Shown here piece by piece: positions 20,805-52,139 of a stretch of DNA of 64,000 bases. The notes below the pieces were generated by a model that saw only the letters and a program-made list of their open reading frames with translations, was not told the DNA's origin and made no database searches. The stretch comes from Persicimonas caeni (GTDB lineage: Bacteria > Myxococcota_A > Bradymonadia > Bradymonadales > Bradymonadaceae). Both the position numbers and the translations under genes were made by a program. Each line of letters begins with the position of its first letter. Position 1 is the stretch's first letter. The stretch lies in the NCBI RefSeq assembly GCF_006517175.1, contig NZ_CP041186.1, positions 2,941,001-3,005,000 on the forward strand, written 5' to 3'.

Positions 20805-22076
20805 CTACGCCGACTTTTTCTCGTACACGAGCATCGGCTTCTCCTTCTTGGTGAGCACCTCTTCGGTGATCACACACTCACGCACGTTGCGCAGGCTCGG
20901 CAGCTCGTACATCACGTCGAGCATGACCTCCTCGAGGATGGAGCGAAGCCCGCGGGCTCCCGTCTTGCGTTTAATGGCCTCGCGCACGATGGCGACCATC
21001 GCCTCGTCCTGGAAGCGCAGCTTGACGCCCTCCATTTCGAACAGCTTCTGATACTGCTTGACGAGGCTGTTCTTGGGCTGCCACAGGATATCGACGAGCA
21101 TATCTTCTGAAAGCTCGTCGAAGGTGACGATGACCGGGAAGCGGCCGACGAACTCGGGGATGAGGCCGAATTTGACCAGGTCGTGGGGACGGGCAAACTT
21201 GAGGATCTCGGAGGTGTTCTCGTCCTTCTTCTTCAATTCCGAGCCAAAGCCCATCTGCTGCTCACCCATGCGCCGGCTGATGATCTCGGTGAGGCCGTCG
21301 AACGAACCGCAGCAGATGAACAAGATATTGCTGGTATCGACCTGGATAAACTCCTGCTGGGGCCGGTTGCGGCTCCCTTCGGGAGTGATCATCACCTCCG
21401 ACGACTCGACCATCTTCAAGAGCGCCTGCTGGACGCCCTCGCCGCCCACGTCGCGGGTGGCCGACGGCGACGAGCCGCCCTTGGCGATCTTGTCGATCTC
21501 GTCGATACACACGATGCCGCGGCTGGCGCGCTCGACGTCGCGGTCGGCGGCGAGCCACAGGTTCTTGATGACGTTTTCGACGTCTTCGCCCACATAACCC
21601 GCCTCGGTCAGGCTGGTGGCGTCGGCGATGGTGAACGGCACGTCGAGCTTTTTGGCCAACGACTGGGCCATCATCGTCTTGCCGCTGCCGGTCGGCCCGA
21701 TCATCAAGATATTGCCCTTGGTCAGTTCGACTTCGTCGTCCTCCTCGTCGAACATGTCGGGCATCTCGAGGGCCAGATCGTCAGCCATGATGCGCTTGTA
21801 GTGGTTGTAGACCGCCACCGAGATGACCCGTTTGGCGCGGTGCTGGCCGACCATATGCTCGTCCAGAAACGCCTTGATTTCTTTGGGACGCATCTCGTCG
21901 AGGCCCTTTTGCTGCTTGGGCTCGCGCTCTTTGTCCTCCTCGATAATCTCGCGGCACAACGACACACACTCGTCGCAGATATGCACCTTGGGACCGGCGA
22001 TGAGCTTGCGCACATCGCGCGCTTCCTTGCCACAAAACGAGCAACGGACCTTGCTATTGGAATCAGTCGGTTTCAT
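20805..22076 (-). CDS. clpX: ClpX-type AAA+ unfoldase
   Basis: A 423-residue ATPase with an N-terminal zinc-binding domain (CSFC...CDEC, residues 12-37), Walker A GPTGSGKT, Walker B IDEID, the pore loop GYVGED and the sensor region LIPEFVGRFPV. The ClpP-docking loop reads MGFG where IGF is usual, so docking is plausible. The RKH substrate loop is altered: SRNRPQQE stands where GRKHPQQE is typical, and the preceding segment (ESSEVMITPE) also differs. No clpP or trigger factor gene is adjacent, unlike the common tig-clpP-clpX order, so this may be a second, divergent ClpX. It ends at the terminator at 20727-20769. Confidence 0.92.
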   Translation of the reverse strand: MKPTDSNSKVRCSFCGKEARDVRKLIAGPKVHICDECVSLCREIIEEDKEREPKQQKGLDEMRPKEIKAFLDEHMVGQHRAKRVISVAVYNHYKRIMADDLALEMPDMFDEEDDEVELTKGNILMIGPTGSGKTMMAQSLAKKLDVPFTIADATSLTEAGYVGEDVENVIKNLWLAADRDVERASRGIVCIDEIDKIAKGGSSPSATRDVGGEGVQQALLKMVESSEVMITPEGSRNRPQQEFIQVDTSNILFICCGSFDGLTEIISRRMGEQQMGFGSELKKKDENTSEILKFARPHDLVKFGLIPEFVGRFPVIVTFDELSEDMLVDILWQPKNSLVKQYQKLFEMEGVKLRFQDEAMVAIVREAIKRKTGARGLRSILEEVMLDVMYELPSLRNVRECVITEEVLTKKEKPMLVYEKKSA

Positions 22077-43552: not shown

Positions 43553-46141
43553 TCATCGGTTGATTACCTTCTTGTTCTCGCCGGGTTTGACCTCGACGTA
43601 GACCGTCTTGTTCAAGCCAAACTCTTCGTTGACGAGTCGAATCTTGTGGTTGCCGGCCTTGATCTTGAAGTTGATCAGCGGTGTGTAGCGCCCGGTGTCT
43701 TTGCCGTCGATGTGCACGCGCGCCACCGGCTTCGAGCCGATGGTCAGCGTGCCGGTGCCCACCGGCTTTTTCTGCTCGGGCTTTTTGGTCGTGGTGGTCG
43801 AGCCGCTCGAGCCCGAATTGCTCCCTCCCGAGTTCGAACTCGATCCGGAGTTGTTCGTGTGGCTGGAGCCGCTCGAGCCCGAATTGCTCCCTCCCGAGTT
43901 CGACCCGCTGTTTCGGTTGGCCTGGGCGACCGCGCCTGACGACGAGCTGCTCGAGCCGCGGTCTTCTTCGCGCTCGAGCTCGGCGTCGAGGGTGTTCTCC
44001 TTGTCGGTGCCGGCCTCGAATTCCTTTTCCCACTCCTCGTAGCCGCTCTTGTCGACGACCACGCGGTACTTCTTGCCGCCGGCGAGCTCTTCGATCGTCT
44101 CGGGGGTGCGCCCGCGAGCCACGCGCTCGTCCTTTTCGACGTCGTAGACCGAGAAGCGCGCCCGTCGGGGCTCGCTTCGCACCGTCAGCGACACCTGCTT
44201 GGGGCGCAACTTGATCGACAGTTCTTCGACGCCCGACTCGACCTCGACGGTCTTCTCTTCGGGGAAATACTCCTCGTGGGAGACCTTGATGGTGTACTCG
44301 CCCGCCTCGAGGTCTTCGAGGGTCAACGGCGTCGCCTCTTTGCGAGCCTCGCCGTTAAGCTCGACCTTGGCTCCGGGGGGCTCGGTCTTCACGAAGATGC
44401 CGCCCTTCTCGGCCTTGGCCGGCTTGAGCGCCTGGTTGAGGCTGTAGGTATCGCCCGACTTCAGCTCTTGGGTCTTGGTGTAGGGCTGGAAGCCTTCGCT
44501 CTCGATGCGAATCTCGGCGTTTCCGGCGGTCGCCTCGTAGGTAAACGGCGTCTCGCCACTGTGAATCTTCTCACCGTTGATGAAGATCTGGACGGCCTTG
44601 GGCTCGGTGTCGAACACGATCGACGGCTTGGCCTTGTCGCCCATGACGAAGAAGTAGACGCCCAGGCCCACCGCGATGACCGCGACGGCCACCCCGGCGA
44701 TGACCATGCCTCGGCTGCCCTTTTTGTTCGACGCCGGCGACATGCTCTGGACGGTGACCTGCGGGTCGCGCCGCTCCTGGGGCACCGGCGCCATCTGCGC
44801 GGTCGGCTGGCGGGTGCGGCCGGTCTCGGGCAGGTCGTTGAAGCTGTCGGGGCCGCCTCCGTCGAAGCCCATCGGGCCGCCGCCGGTGTCGATCTCGCGC
44901 TCCTCGAACTGCTGTTGGACGTCCCAACGGTTGTACTCGATGGTGGCGTCGCCGTCGTCGACGTCATCTTCGATCTCGATGATGTCGTCGTCGGCCGCGT
45001 ACACGATCTGCGACTCGGTGATCGCCTCGACCTCTTCGGAGGTGCGGTCGAAGATCTGGGTCTCCATCTCCTCTTCGCCCCACTCCAGCCCGCCGCCTCC
45101 GCCGCCGGGCGGCTCCAGGCGCGCCTCGCCGTCGTCGCTCGGGGCGGTCAGGTTCAGGCCCCGGTAGTACTCGAGCTTTTTGTTCTCGAACTCGATGTCG
45201 GCGTTGAACGCCTGCTTCATCGAGTTGGCCAGGTCTTTGTTCGTAAAATAGTAGCCCTGGTTGCGCATGAAGCGCTCGAGCGCCTCGGCCAGATCGTGGG
45301 CCGACTGGTAGCGGTCGTCGGGCGACTTCGCCAGCGCCTTGAGGACGATGTCCTCGAGCTCCTTGGGGATATGCGGGTTGTAGAGGCTGGGCGGGCTCAT
45401 CTCGACTTTGCGGATCTTTTCGAGCGTGTCGAAGTCGCTCTCGCCCAAAAAGAGCCGCTCGAGGGTGAGCATCTCGTAGAGCACGATCCCCAAGCTGAAG
45501 ATGTCGCTGCGGTGGTCGACATGCAGCCCGCGCACCTGCTCGGGGCTCATGTAGCTGAACTTGCCCTTGAGGATGCCCACCTGTGTCTGGCTCTGCTTGC
45601 CGGTGGCCTTGGCGATGCCAAAATCGATGACCTTGACCTCACCTTCGTAGGAGATGAGGACGTTTTGCGGAGAGATGTCGCGGTGGACGATGTTGAGCGG
45701 GTTGCCCTGCGAGTCGTTCTTTTCGTGCGCGTGGGCCAGCCCCTCACACACCTTCATGACGATGTAGCAGACCCGCGGGATGTCGACCTTCTCGCCGATG
45801 CGCCGCGCGCGCTCGAAGATGGTCTTTACATCTTTGCCGCTGATGTACTCCATGGCGATGAAGTACGAATCGTCGACCTTTCCCAGGTCGAAGATCTGGG
45901 CGATATTCGGGTGGTTGAGCTGCCCGGCGATCTTCGCTTCATCAATGAACATATTGATGAACGACTCGTCCTCGGCGATGCTCGACAGGATCTTTTTGAC
46001 CGCCAGAAGGCGCTCGAACCCCTCCACACCGAAGGCTTTCGCCTTATATACCTCCGCCATTCCCCCAACGTTGATACGTTCGAGGAGGTAGTACTTTCCA
46101 AACGGAATGGGTTTGGGAAGAATGCCCGGTTCGTTGCTCAT
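43553..46141 (-). CDS. transmembrane Ser/Thr protein kinase with PEGA domains
   Basis: An 862-residue kinase: kinase domain (about residues 14-300; GGMAEVYKA, HRDISPQN, DFG, GKFSYMSPEQV), an acidic Asp/Glu/Gly-rich linker, one membrane helix (about 477-500; VIAGVAVAVIAVGLGVYFF), then PEGA domains at about 505-570, 575-640, 645-710 and, after a Ser/Gly/Asn linker, a further one at 795-860. PEGA domains are beta-sandwiches likely to contact the cell wall or surface layer. The Ser/Gly linker is encoded by a duplicated 39-bp segment (43801-43903). It is first in a two-kinase minus-strand operon. Confidence 0.92.
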   Translation of the reverse strand: MSNEPGILPKPIPFGKYYLLERINVGGMAEVYKAKAFGVEGFERLLAVKKILSSIAEDESFINMFIDEAKIAGQLNHPNIAQIFDLGKVDDSYFIAMEYISGKDVKTIFERARRIGEKVDIPRVCYIVMKVCEGLAHAHEKNDSQGNPLNIVHRDISPQNVLISYEGEVKVIDFGIAKATGKQSQTQVGILKGKFSYMSPEQVRGLHVDHRSDIFSLGIVLYEMLTLERLFLGESDFDTLEKIRKVEMSPPSLYNPHIPKELEDIVLKALAKSPDDRYQSAHDLAEALERFMRNQGYYFTNKDLANSMKQAFNADIEFENKKLEYYRGLNLTAPSDDGEARLEPPGGGGGGLEWGEEEMETQIFDRTSEEVEAITESQIVYAADDDIIEIEDDVDDGDATIEYNRWDVQQQFEEREIDTGGGPMGFDGGGPDSFNDLPETGRTRQPTAQMAPVPQERRDPQVTVQSMSPASNKKGSRGMVIAGVAVAVIAVGLGVYFFVMGDKAKPSIVFDTEPKAVQIFINGEKIHSGETPFTYEATAGNAEIRIESEGFQPYTKTQELKSGDTYSLNQALKPAKAEKGGIFVKTEPPGAKVELNGEARKEATPLTLEDLEAGEYTIKVSHEEYFPEEKTVEVESGVEELSIKLRPKQVSLTVRSEPRRARFSVYDVEKDERVARGRTPETIEELAGGKKYRVVVDKSGYEEWEKEFEAGTDKENTLDAELEREEDRGSSSSSSGAVAQANRNSGSNSGGSNSGSSGSSHTNNSGSSSNSGGSNSGSSGSTTTTKKPEQKKPVGTGTLTIGSKPVARVHIDGKDTGRYTPLINFKIKAGNHKIRLVNEEFGLNKTVYVEVKPGENKKVINR
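43801..43903. repeat. in-gene direct duplication in a Ser/Gly linker
   Basis: A segment of about 39 bases beginning GAGCCGCTCGAGCCCGAATT occurs twice (near 43801 and 43865), encoding repeated NSGGSNSGSSGS in the PEGA kinase. It is probably a recent slippage or recombination product. Confidence 0.6.
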
Positions 46142-48785: not shown

Positions 48786-49181
48786 ATGAGTGAACAAAAG
48801 TTGAACAGACGCGAATTCTTCGAACGAGCCGCGATGCTCGGAGCCGTTGCTGCAGGCGCAGGTAGCTTCTTGGCGGCATGCCAGAAGCAAGGCGGCAACG
48901 GCGCCGAAGCCGAAGGCGGCGCCGGCGCGCAAAAAGCCGAAGGCGGCGGCGCCAAAGGCGGCGAGCTGAGCTGCACCGACACTGCTGGCCTGAGCGAGCA
49001 GCAGATCAAGGTGCGCGAGTCGCTCAACTACGTCGACAAATCGCCCAAACCCGAGCAGCTGTGCGAGAACTGCCAGCTGTACAAGCCCGCCCCCAGCGCA
49101 GGGGAATGTGGCGGCTGCCAGACCGTCCCCGGCCCGATCCACCCGAAAGGTTGGTGCACGGCATGGGTGAAAAAGTCGTAA
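48786..49181 (+). CDS. high-potential iron-sulfur protein (HiPIP)
   Basis: A 131-residue electron carrier. The N-terminus (LNRREFFERAAMLGAV) is a Tat-type signal and overlaps a lipobox-like LAAC (Cys32), so it may be a lipoprotein exported folded. A Gly/Ala/Lys linker precedes the mature domain. The four cluster ligands follow the HiPIP pattern C-x2-C ... C ... C (CENC, GGCQT, GWCTAW). HiPIPs carry single electrons in the periplasm between cytochrome bc1 or alternative complex III and an oxidase. It is monocistronic and ends in a clear terminator. Confidence 0.92.
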   Translation: MSEQKLNRREFFERAAMLGAVAAGAGSFLAACQKQGGNGAEAEGGAGAQKAEGGGAKGGELSCTDTAGLSEQQIKVRESLNYVDKSPKPEQLCENCQLYKPAPSAGECGGCQTVPGPIHPKGWCTAWVKKS

Positions 49182-49205: not shown

Positions 49206-49240
49206 CCCCCGTACAGTCTCTGAGTGTACGGGGGTTTTTT
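49206..49240 (+). terminator. Rho-independent terminator of the HiPIP gene
   Basis: A ten-base stem CCCCCGTACA/TGTACGGGGG with a nine-base loop is followed by six Ts, 24 bp after the HiPIP stop. Confidence 0.95.
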
Positions 49241-49373: not shown

Positions 49374-51926
49374 ATGGAAGACAAGGAGCAACTGGCTCGT
49401 CAACTGCTCGACAAGATCGAGGAGACCGAAGACGAAGAGCGCTACCGCAGCTTCAGGGACCAGCTGTACGGGTTGGGCCCCGACGTGCTGCCGCTGCTTC
49501 GCAAGGAATTGGCCAGCTACCACTATCGGCGGCGCATGGCCGCAGCGACCAACTTGGGACGATTGGGGGACGCGCAGGCCGTCAGCGAGCTTGTGCGCCT
49601 GCTGAACGACCCGCAGGCCGGCGTGCGCGAGATGGCGTTGTTCGCGCTGGGGATTTTGGGGGACACCAGCGTCACCGACGCCATCCTCAACTCCCTGAAC
49701 GACTACGACGCCGACGTGCGCTACCGCGCGCTGGTCGCCCTGAGCGACCTGGGCTACGGCCAGCTCGAGGACGTGCTCATCCGCTGCATGAACGACGAGG
49801 CGTACGGGGTGCGCGAGCAGGCGCTCGGCCAGCTTCGCACCATCGGCTCGGTCAAGGCGGTGCCCGCGGTGCTGCGCGCGCTCTTGGAGCGTGAATCCGA
49901 GATGCAGCAGATGGCCGAGGAGGCCCTCGACCGCCTCGTCCCCAAGATGACCCGCGAGCACTACAAGCGGCTTCGCGAAGAGCTCAAACCCCGCGAGCGC
50001 CGCCTCGTGCTCAACTACTTGGAGGCGCGCAACCTGCAGGAGGTCTACGGCACGCTGTGGAAAAAGCTGCAGCTCGTCTCCAAGAATAGCGGCTCGAAGC
50101 GCGGGCTCGACAAATACGGGCGCATCCTCAACTCCCCCGACGAGCGCGAATTCTTGTCGCGCGCCTACGGCCGCGACGAAGAGGTCGACCTGCTCGTCGA
50201 CCACTTCGGCAACCCCGACGTGCAGCGCAGCGTCTTGCTGGTCGGCGAGGCCGGCGTGGGCAAGACCGCGGTCATCCAGGAGTTCGCCCAGCGGCTCATC
50301 GACACCGACGAAGACTGGAAGGTGCTCGAGACCAACACCAGCGAGCTCATCAGCGGCACACGCTACCTGGGCGACTGGGAGACCAAGCTCAAGGAGATGA
50401 CCGACGCGATCCTCAAGGACAAGTCGCGCGTGATCATCTACATCACCAACCCCAACGACCTTTTGGGCGCAGGCGCGCACTCCAAGAGCGACGAGAACTT
50501 CGCCGACTTCTTCAAGCCCTACCTGCACCGCGGCCAGGTCCACATGATCGCCGAGTGCACCGAAGAGGCGCTCAAGGGCGGCCTGAGCCGCGACCCCGGC
50601 TTCTTGCGCCTCTTCCGCCAGGTCAAAGTCCAGCCGATGGACGACAAGCAGACCCTCGACGTGCTCGAAAAGCGCGTGGGAGATCTGAAAGCCCACGGCG
50701 GCCGCAAAGTCACCGCCGAAGAGGGCACGCTCGAGCAAGTCGTCGACTTCGCCAAGAGCTTTTATACCCGGGCGCACGCCCCGGGCCGCGCCTGCGACCT
50801 GCTCGACGCGCTCGTCGACTACGCCGGCCGCAAGAGCGACGACGACGAAAAGGTCGTCGAGCTTCGCGTCGAGCAATTGCCGCCGTGCTTGTCCGAAGTC
50901 ACCGGCATGAGCCTCGACCTGCTCGACGACACCATCCCGCTCGACCTCGACGAAACCGAGGAGTGGTTCAAGACGCGCCTGATCGACCAGGACCACGCCG
51001 TCGACAGCTTCGTCGACCGCCTGGCGATGGTCAAAGCAGGCCTGGGCGACCCGGAGCGCCCGCTGGGCGTCCACTTCCTGGTCGGCCCCACGGGCGTGGG
51101 CAAGACCTACTTCACCAAGCTCGTGAGCGAGCGCCTCTTCGGCAGCGACGACCGCATGATTCGCTTCGACTTGAGCGAATACCAGGGCCGCTTCGCCGTC
51201 GAGAAGCTCATCGGCTCGCCGCACGACAAAGACCGCGAGGGCCTGCTGACCGAGGCGGTCAAAAACCAGCCGTACAGCGTGTTGCTCTTCGACGAATTCG
51301 AGAAGGCCGACCCCGAGATCTACCACCTGTTCCTGCAGATCTTGGACGAGGGCCGCCTGACCGACGCGCGCGGTCGCACCACCGACTTTCGCCAGACGCT
51401 CATCTTCCTGACGAGCAACCTGGGCGCCTCCAAGACGAGCATCGTGCCCGTCGGCTTCGACGGCAACAACGGCCAGACGAGCTACACGGGCCATATCCGC
51501 CACAAGCTCGACGAATTCTTCGCCCCCGAGTTCTTGAACCGGTTGGACGAAATCGTCGTCTTCGACCCGCTCACCCCGCGCGCCATGGAGCGCCTGGTCG
51601 AGCTCGAGATCGCCAAGGCCCTCGAGCGCCGCGGGTTCGCGCGCCGAAAACTTCGCGTGCGCACCACCCGCGCGGCGATGCTGTGGCTCGAAGAGCAGGG
51701 CTTCTCGGAGCGTTTCGGCGCCCGCGAGCTCAAGCGCACTATCGAGCGCAGCGTGCTCGCTCCCATCAGCCGACTCATCGTCACCGAACCCGGCGGCCAC
51801 CACGGCAAGACGCTCCTGGTCGACGAGGAGGACGGTGATTTGACCGTTTCGTTCGTGCGCCGCGAGGAGACGACTGGTACACCGGCTCTGCCAAGAGAAC
51901 CCCGGACGCCGTCGCGGGTCGAGTAG
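49374..51926 (+). CDS. HEAT-repeat / double AAA+ Clp hybrid
   Basis: An 850-residue protein. Residues 1-235 are HEAT-like repeats (VSELVRLLNDPQAGVREMALFALGILGD and following units) that replace the Clp N-domain. The first AAA+ domain (about 270-500) keeps Walker A GEAGVGKT, but its Walker B strand reads VIIYITNPNDLLGAGA where FIDEIH is expected, so the catalytic acidic pair is missing. The second AAA+ domain (about 555-800) is intact: GPTGVGKT, LLFDEFEKAD, LTSNLGA, NRLDEIVVF, and FGARELKRTIE. VGFDG precedes the NRLDE motif where ClpC carries its VGF ClpP-docking loop. AGGGAG precedes ATG 49374. It is presumably an unfoldase or disaggregase with HEAT-mediated substrate choice. Confidence 0.85.
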   Translation: MEDKEQLARQLLDKIEETEDEERYRSFRDQLYGLGPDVLPLLRKELASYHYRRRMAAATNLGRLGDAQAVSELVRLLNDPQAGVREMALFALGILGDTSVTDAILNSLNDYDADVRYRALVALSDLGYGQLEDVLIRCMNDEAYGVREQALGQLRTIGSVKAVPAVLRALLERESEMQQMAEEALDRLVPKMTREHYKRLREELKPRERRLVLNYLEARNLQEVYGTLWKKLQLVSKNSGSKRGLDKYGRILNSPDEREFLSRAYGRDEEVDLLVDHFGNPDVQRSVLLVGEAGVGKTAVIQEFAQRLIDTDEDWKVLETNTSELISGTRYLGDWETKLKEMTDAILKDKSRVIIYITNPNDLLGAGAHSKSDENFADFFKPYLHRGQVHMIAECTEEALKGGLSRDPGFLRLFRQVKVQPMDDKQTLDVLEKRVGDLKAHGGRKVTAEEGTLEQVVDFAKSFYTRAHAPGRACDLLDALVDYAGRKSDDDEKVVELRVEQLPPCLSEVTGMSLDLLDDTIPLDLDETEEWFKTRLIDQDHAVDSFVDRLAMVKAGLGDPERPLGVHFLVGPTGVGKTYFTKLVSERLFGSDDRMIRFDLSEYQGRFAVEKLIGSPHDKDREGLLTEAVKNQPYSVLLFDEFEKADPEIYHLFLQILDEGRLTDARGRTTDFRQTLIFLTSNLGASKTSIVPVGFDGNNGQTSYTGHIRHKLDEFFAPEFLNRLDEIVVFDPLTPRAMERLVELEIAKALERRGFARRKLRVRTTRAAMLWLEEQGFSERFGARELKRTIERSVLAPISRLIVTEPGGHHGKTLLVDEEDGDLTVSFVRREETTGTPALPREPRTPSRVE

Positions 51927-51939
51927 TTCTAGTATGCAG

Positions 51940-52139
51940 TCCCTTGCTTTTTGGCGGGGCCCCTCCGACGGCTCCGCCGACACCTCCCCTTGCGCTGAAA
52001 ACCGCGCCGGGGAGGGGGATTGCAGGTAAGAAAAGCGTTCCAAAGGTGCAATCCCCCTCCCCCGGCTGCTTTCCAGGCCGAGGGGAGGTGGCCGAGCGCC
52101 GTTCGCTCGACCGGAGGGGCCCTTACAAGAAGCAAGGGA
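51940..52139. repeat. 200-bp imperfect inverted repeat
   Basis: Ends TCCCTTGCTT and AAGCAAGGGA bound two arms of about 90 bases that share GGGGCCCCTCCG, CACCTCCCCT and CGGGGAGGGGGATTGCA in mirror order. It occupies most of the gap between the Clp hybrid and rsmG, which share its direction. No protein is encoded. It could be a non-autonomous element or a large RNA hairpin. Confidence 0.7.

Follow-up and report, generated by a model that had tools for sequence, protein, structure and literature searches.

We identified a Clp protein of Persicimonas caeni, here called HEAT-Clp, in which, as read from the sequence, the site of ATP hydrolysis survives only in the second AAA domain (D2) and the canonical aromatic pore-loop paddle only in the first (D1). 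HEAT-Clp is real, conserved and unusual, and it appears to be a ring-type Clp protein-remodelling machine carrying HEAT repeats instead of the usual recognition domain. Its gene lies in a 64,000-nucleotide stretch, referred to as the window, of the P. caeni genome (8.05 Mb, single contig). Its features are listed in Table 1, with motif positions taken from alignment with E. coli ClpA and ClpB.

Table 1 Features of HEAT-Clp in the window and of two related fusion genes; residue numbers refer to HEAT-Clp
Feature	Position	Strand	Basis
HEAT-Clp gene, 850 aa + stop	49374..51926	+	Open reading frame; ATG at 49374, stop ends 51926
N-terminal HEAT solenoid (1-232), about 14-15 helices	49374..50069	+	Pfam, model, PDB matches
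D1 AAA domain (245-487), predicted ATP binding without hydrolysis	50106..50834	+	Pfam AAA; alignment to E. coli ClpA/ClpB
D1 Walker A GEAGVGKT (291-298)	50244..50267	+	Alignment
D1 pore-1 loop GTRYLGDW (328-335), aromatic Tyr331 retained	50355..50378	+	Aligned to GTKYRGDF of E. coli ClpA
Thr358-Asn359 at the D1 Walker B Asp-Glu position	50445..50450	+	Alignment
D1 arginine-finger position, Arg412-Leu413 versus Arg-Arg	50607..50612	+	Alignment
D2 large AAA domain (495-730), catalytic motifs intact	50856..51563	+	Pfam AAA_2 (2.8e-44); structural match
D2 Walker A GPTGVGKT (571-578)	51084..51107	+	Invariant in 18 orthologues
D2 pore-1 replacement GSPHDKDREGL (614-624), no aromatic paddle	51213..51245	+	Near-invariant in 18 orthologues
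D2 Walker B VLLFDEFEKA (636-645)	51279..51308	+	D640, E641 invariant
VGF (693-695) at the ClpP-docking loop position	51450..51458	+	Aligned with IGL of E. coli ClpA
D2 arginine finger Arg723 (PEFLNRLD)	51540..51542	+	Invariant
D2 small (lid) domain (731-805), sensor-2 GAR (782-784)	51564..51788	+	Pfam ClpB_D2-small
C-terminal motif PREPRTPSR (840-848; conserved form PREPRxPSR)	51891..51917	+	Alignment
Clp-like ATPase with C-terminal RF2-like (PCRF/prfB) domain	L034:3317-6913	-	
Clp-like ATPase with C-terminal RF2-like (PCRF/prfB) domain	L060:174-2969	+	

A HEAT solenoid in place of the Clp N-domain

Pfam searches with HEAT-Clp returned HEAT_2/HEAT_PBS repeats, AAA (residues 287-372), AAA_2 (563-727) and ClpB_D2-small (733-805), and the order from the N to the C terminus is HEAT solenoid, D1, D2 and small D2 lid. 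The two consecutive Clp-type AAA domains and the D2 small domain by which we recognized the Hsp100/Clp double-AAA family are present, and HEAT-Clp is a member of this family by fold and sequence. The best structural matches of its model are ClpC and ClpAP chains; residues 236-830 superpose on ClpC with Z 30.2 (575 residues, rmsd 7.5), the full model being a monomer (pTM 0.60) in which inter-domain placement is uncertain.

A preliminary description had the Clp N-domain replaced by about 235 residues of HEAT repeats, and this is well founded. Besides the Pfam repeats, residues 1-236 modelled alone form a HEAT solenoid (pLDDT 96.1, pTM 0.88), and the best PDB matches of the modelled N-terminal part are alphaRep/HEAT proteins. 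Five other Clp-like frames in P. caeni match Clp_N (PF02861), and HEAT-Clp has no such match even at E<=10. A divergent Clp N-domain inside the HEAT region was rejected, as there is no Clp_N match and the HEAT fold is clean. The HEAT paralogues of family f2 share this N-terminus (219 columns, 97.8%, E 6.5e-13 with hhalign); a HEAT relationship was unsupported for the N-terminus of L034, one of the fusion proteins in Table 1 (hhalign 1.6%).

HEAT-Clp is core to the order Bradymonadales

A search for homologues with the same domain order, as had been suggested, found orthologues throughout the order: all 26 Bradymonadales genomes examined encode one, with 53-81% identity, namely 21/21 in the family of P. 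caeni and 5/5 in another family. Contig ends truncate some of these genes. Named relatives include Lujinxingia vulgaris and Lujinxingiaceae and Bradymonadaceae bacteria. Full-length orthologues were found in 0/31 other genomes of the class and nowhere else in a 237-genome sample of the phylum. HEAT-Clp is core to the Bradymonadales, which have been described as a predatory group (PMC7460792).

The features of HEAT-Clp are retained across an alignment of 18 orthologues, on which all residue-invariance counts are based; mean pairwise identity is 0.64 for D1, 0.70 for D2 and 0.61 for HEAT. The PREPRxPSR motif, set in a variable tail, occurs in most same-family orthologues, not in f2. A pseudogene or sequencing artefact was ruled out by the conservation in 26 genomes, and the idea of a non-enzymatic relic or mis-called pseudogene, which the degenerate D1 might invite, is vanishingly improbable given the open frame and the high conservation over the whole order. 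A known defence system was also considered; the PADLOC matches do not extend beyond the generic AAA core and the HEAT repeats and are uninformative.

D1 is predicted to bind ATP without hydrolysing it

The earlier observation that Walker A is present in D1 whereas Thr-Asn occupies the Asp-Glu position of Walker B is borne out by the alignment, in which YITN of D1 stands opposite FIDE of E. coli ClpA/ClpB. Asn359 is found in 18/18 orthologues, and residue 358 is Thr in 15 and Lys in 3. Two hydrolysing AAA domains are a feature of ClpA/ClpC; here D1 has Thr-Asn or Lys-Asn in all orthologues. In the arginine-finger pair, R412 is present in 18/18, residue 413 is Leu (15), Gln (2) or Cys (1), and the second arginine is lost. 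Since the catalytic Glu is replaced by Asn, as in an ATP-trap mutant, D1 probably stays ATP-bound and stabilizes the ring; it probably binds ATP but does not burn it.

The D1 Walker B block (350-385) has a mean pairwise identity of 0.84, versus 0.64 for the whole of D1, and residues 358-376 are almost invariant. Within this block, D1 might still hydrolyse ATP through a different acidic residue, for example Asp362 or Glu374: position 362 is always Asp or Glu and E374 is invariant in the 18 orthologues. However, both positions lie downstream of the AAA+ Walker B strand position, their columns vary outside the orthologue group and the finger pair has also lost its second arginine. We regard this alternative as very unlikely.

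D1 had been proposed to be a nucleotide-binding scaffold. The kept Walker A and the invariant Asn agree with this, but the pore tyrosine is retained, and T329, R330, Y331, L332, G333 and W335 of the pore loop are invariant in the 18 orthologues. The tyrosine in GTRYLGDW suggests that D1 may be more than a scaffold.

D2 keeps its catalytic motifs and has lost the GYVG loop

The D2 model matches D2 of ClpB (4fcv) with a VIA-align Z of 29.1 and an rmsd of 1.9 over 299 residues. In addition to Walker A, D2 carries FDE in Walker B, TSN in the sensor-1 region and NRLD at the arginine finger. The preliminary description had called D2 complete, which is correct for the ATPase motifs, all of them present, but not for the pore. 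E. coli ClpA carries GAPPGYVGFDQGGL where HEAT-Clp D2 has GSPHDKDREGL; the GAPPGYVG pore loop, by which D2 of ClpA and ClpB holds on to substrate, is replaced by a nearly invariant SPHDKDREG in every HEAT-Clp orthologue, and the GYVG looked for as a ClpA/ClpC feature is missing from all of them. The region around it (611-626) is highly conserved and charged in the 18 orthologues. That this loop and the D1 block 358-376 are both almost invariant points to selection, not decay.

The tyrosines of KYR (D1) and GYVG (D2) both touch the substrate chain in ClpA (PMC9663308), and mutation of the GYVG tyrosine abolishes disaggregation by Skd3 (PMC7343390). With the aromatic loop lost, the usual paddle is no longer there for D2 hydrolysis to drive. 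HEAT-Clp D2 should thus grip poorly, so that either D1 holds the client for D2 or remodelling occurs without threading. The proposal of an unfoldase driven by D2 alone is in part retained, D2 being the sole intact hydrolysis site, but an ordinary unfoldase of this kind would not lack the D2 paddle.

A conserved GF motif at the ClpP loop

An [IVL]G[FL] motif is present between sensor-1 and the arginine finger. The claim that VGF lies where ClpC docks ClpP agrees with its alignment to the ClpA IGL. In the orthologues the motif takes the form [VLM]GF, with G694 and F695 in 18/18 within an otherwise hypervariable loop, which in the model has a pLDDT <50 and disordered flanks. An invariant Gly-Phe with variable and disordered flanks fits a short ClpP-docking motif, and HEAT-Clp probably docks ClpP, as far as these residues indicate. 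Two full-length ClpP genes are found in the P. caeni genome. On the other hand, the GF is also found in members of the wider clade described below without a known ClpP link and could therefore serve ring packing, and the loss of GYVG counts against ClpP feeding, because feeding needs translocation.

These points bear on a rather unlikely competing explanation, a ClpP-independent remodeller or assembly ATPase in which D2 cycles would reshape the ring and part HEAT-bound partners without pore threading, the GF being a leftover or packing within the ring. Consistent with such an enzyme are the loss of GYVG in 38/38 clade members, the highly conserved, charged D2 loop found instead and the absence of a protease neighbour, whereas the invariant D1 pore tyrosine and the invariant GF amid a hypervariable loop argue against it.

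Elsewhere in the window, an AAA_2 match at 21129-21719 (minus strand) falls in a 430 aa frame that is probably ClpX-like; the other gene of this kind, G000:C1:3738964, lies after a clpP.

HEAT-Clp belongs to an apparently undescribed Clp clade

A tree built on the D1-D2 core (28 rows, 555 columns) places HEAT-Clp in a clade apart from canonical ClpA/ClpB, with a support of 100/100. The clade also holds the f2 HEAT paralogues, RF2-fused proteins and tandem Clp-like genes. According to the motif table, 38/38 clade members (22 from the tree, the other 16 recruited by similarity) have neither the catalytic Glu in D1 nor GYVG in D2; Walker A and the Asp-Glu of Walker B are kept in D2 of 38/38. Six canonical Clps included in the table retain the D1 catalytic Glu, GYVG and D2 Walker A/B. 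The clade is apparently an undescribed branch of the Clp family. Literature searches, made in open-licence papers only, found no description of HEAT plus Clp, release factor plus Clp, PCRF plus Clp, a degenerate Walker B plus GYVG, or Clp-RF2 fusions; for a search of that scope, such absence is weak evidence. The earlier remark that no described system has this make-up holds for that literature, but the protein is one of a clade with the same two losses.

The RF2-like C-termini of relatives gave prfB matches with E-values of 2e-31 (L034) and 6.5e-13 (L060), and of 7.8e-20 to 1.5e-12 in five Myxococcota relatives (L076-L080); weak RF2 traces were seen in HEAT paralogues and tandem genes. Hosts of the fusions are Myxococcota and an Obscuribacterales genome. 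The GGQ motif, a feature of working release factors, is absent in all seven fusions (L034, L060, L076-L080), and HEAT-Clp itself has no RF2-like domain. By reading, the Obscuribacterales gene adjoins a frame resembling a VirB4/TraC-type conjugation ATPase (L060:3804-6629, plus strand). In family f2, the second HEAT-Clp paralogue (L029, L030, L031; partial in L032, L033) has about 170 extra C-terminal residues with a weak RF2 trace.

The P. caeni genome also carries three tandem Clp-like genes within the clade (G000:C1:1238032-1246677, L061). Sets of two to three adjacent paralogous Clp-like genes (L061, L035, L036, L081-L083), with a degenerate D1 and without GYVG, recur among further families of the class and phylum. 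They possibly form a hetero-oligomeric machine.

Genomic neighbourhood

Upstream of HEAT-Clp lie an aldehyde-dehydrogenase-like gene (minus strand) and a gene for a high-potential iron-sulfur protein (HiPIP) with a likely Tat signal (48786-49181, plus strand). The HiPIP gene is followed by a terminator-like hairpin (49215-49236), of a kind no rarer in shuffled sequence. The 16S rRNA methyltransferase gene rsmG lies directly downstream in 8/12 same-family loci besides the window, two of the four loci without it ending at or near a contig edge. It does not overlap: HEAT-Clp ends at 51926 and the rsmG frame starts at 52020 at the earliest. In family f2 the neighbours differ (acyl-CoA dehydrogenase and CxxCxxCC), and no protease, adaptor or obvious client was found among the HEAT-Clp neighbours. 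An operon with a functional partner was rejected, given the hairpin after HiPIP and the different neighbours between families. A Ser/Thr kinase with PEGA repeats is encoded near HEAT-Clp (43553-46141, minus strand), and three other same-family loci (L042, L048, L053) have an orthologue of it adjacent to HEAT-Clp or nearby.

The rsmG association and the RF2-like C-termini (L034, L060, five Myxococcota, weak traces elsewhere) would both suit a ribosome- or translation-linked Clp acting on ribosomes or rescue factors, whose release-factor part was lost or comes from another member of the clade. We find this improbable, as the window protein has no RF2-like part, the gene order is different in family f2 and rsmG, without overlap, may be incidental.

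Proposed mechanism and significance

The explanation we prefer, to which we give an even chance, is an Hsp100-type remodeller powered by D2, with an ATP-bound gripping D1, recruitment by HEAT and docking to ClpP. It draws on features of the aligned sequences: the architecture, the loss of the D1 Walker B, the intact D2 catalytic motifs, the loss of GYVG, the conserved GF and the conservation over the order. HEAT-Clp would form a two-tier, probably hexameric ATPase of the Hsp100/Clp type in which D2 would be the only ring to hydrolyse ATP. D1, permanently in the ATP state, would act as the assembly ring, with its pore tyrosines holding on to the client. The HEAT solenoid, earlier proposed to choose substrates, would recruit clients or an adaptor, and the [VLM]GF loop would attach HEAT-Clp to one of the two ClpP peptidases. 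With no aromatic GYVG paddle in D2, translocation is expected to be weak, and the strokes of D2 would more probably remodel a client held by D1, or feed it slowly, than unfold stable domains with a strong grip.

More broadly, and as a tentative view, HEAT-Clp could represent an undescribed Hsp100 subfamily in which a non-hydrolysing D1 grips, a paddle-less D2 powers, and exchangeable HEAT or RF2-like modules aim the machine, possibly at the ribosome. The points of most interest are the split of hydrolysis and grip between the rings and the release-factor-like fusions in sister proteins. If this view is true, ATP hydrolysis and pore-loop grip would here be separated naturally. Engineered mutants have been the usual way to ask whether the two must share one ring, an issue at the heart of AAA+ mechanics. 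A counterpart of a combined D1 Walker B and D2 pore-loop mutant has apparently been fixed by nature, order-wide and in the wider clade, which would make the question testable with a wild-type protein. It would also show how HEAT or release-factor-like modules attach to a Clp machine.

Comparison with known Clp systems

Like ClpC/ClpA, HEAT-Clp has two AAA rings, no long M-domain of the ClpB type, the D2 catalytic motifs and, at the position of the ClpP loop, the [IVL]G[FL] motif. Unlike them, it has a HEAT N-terminus and lacks the Clp N-domain, the D1 Walker B Asp-Glu and the D2 GYVG, and it belongs to a separate clade, the tree placing it outside canonical ClpA/ClpB members (100/100). ClpB/Hsp104, ClpV (TssH), ClpK and ClpG share a common D1-D2 core with HEAT-Clp, as seen from NCBIfam matches, but the M-domain is absent from HEAT-Clp in the alignment, motifs are lost and the scores are far below the curated cut-offs (365 versus 1232 bits for ClpB and 303 versus 885 bits for ClpV).

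ClpI of Actinomycetota is likewise a phylogenetically distinct double-ring Clp class, with a variable N-domain and a ClpP motif that is present or absent (PMC10149685); in contrast to HEAT-Clp, its ATPase modules and translocation motifs are intact. Because the defining features that we compared differ, HEAT-Clp is not ClpA, ClpB, ClpC, ClpV or ClpI. The RF2-fused Clp-like ATPases (L034, L060, L076-L080) have the same D1 and D2 losses, and L034 and L060 are in the HEAT-Clp clade, but they end in an RF2-like domain and HEAT-Clp does not.

In human Skd3/CLPB, a repeat solenoid also precedes a single hydrolysing D2-type ATPase (PMC7343390). Skd3 differs in having no D1, ankyrin and not HEAT repeats, and an essential GYVG that is kept, and the paper describing it makes no mention of ClpP (PMC7343390). 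By analogy, HEAT-Clp would work most like a machine of the ClpC type in which one ring is disabled, and Skd3 would be the nearest analogue of its solenoid plus single active D2.
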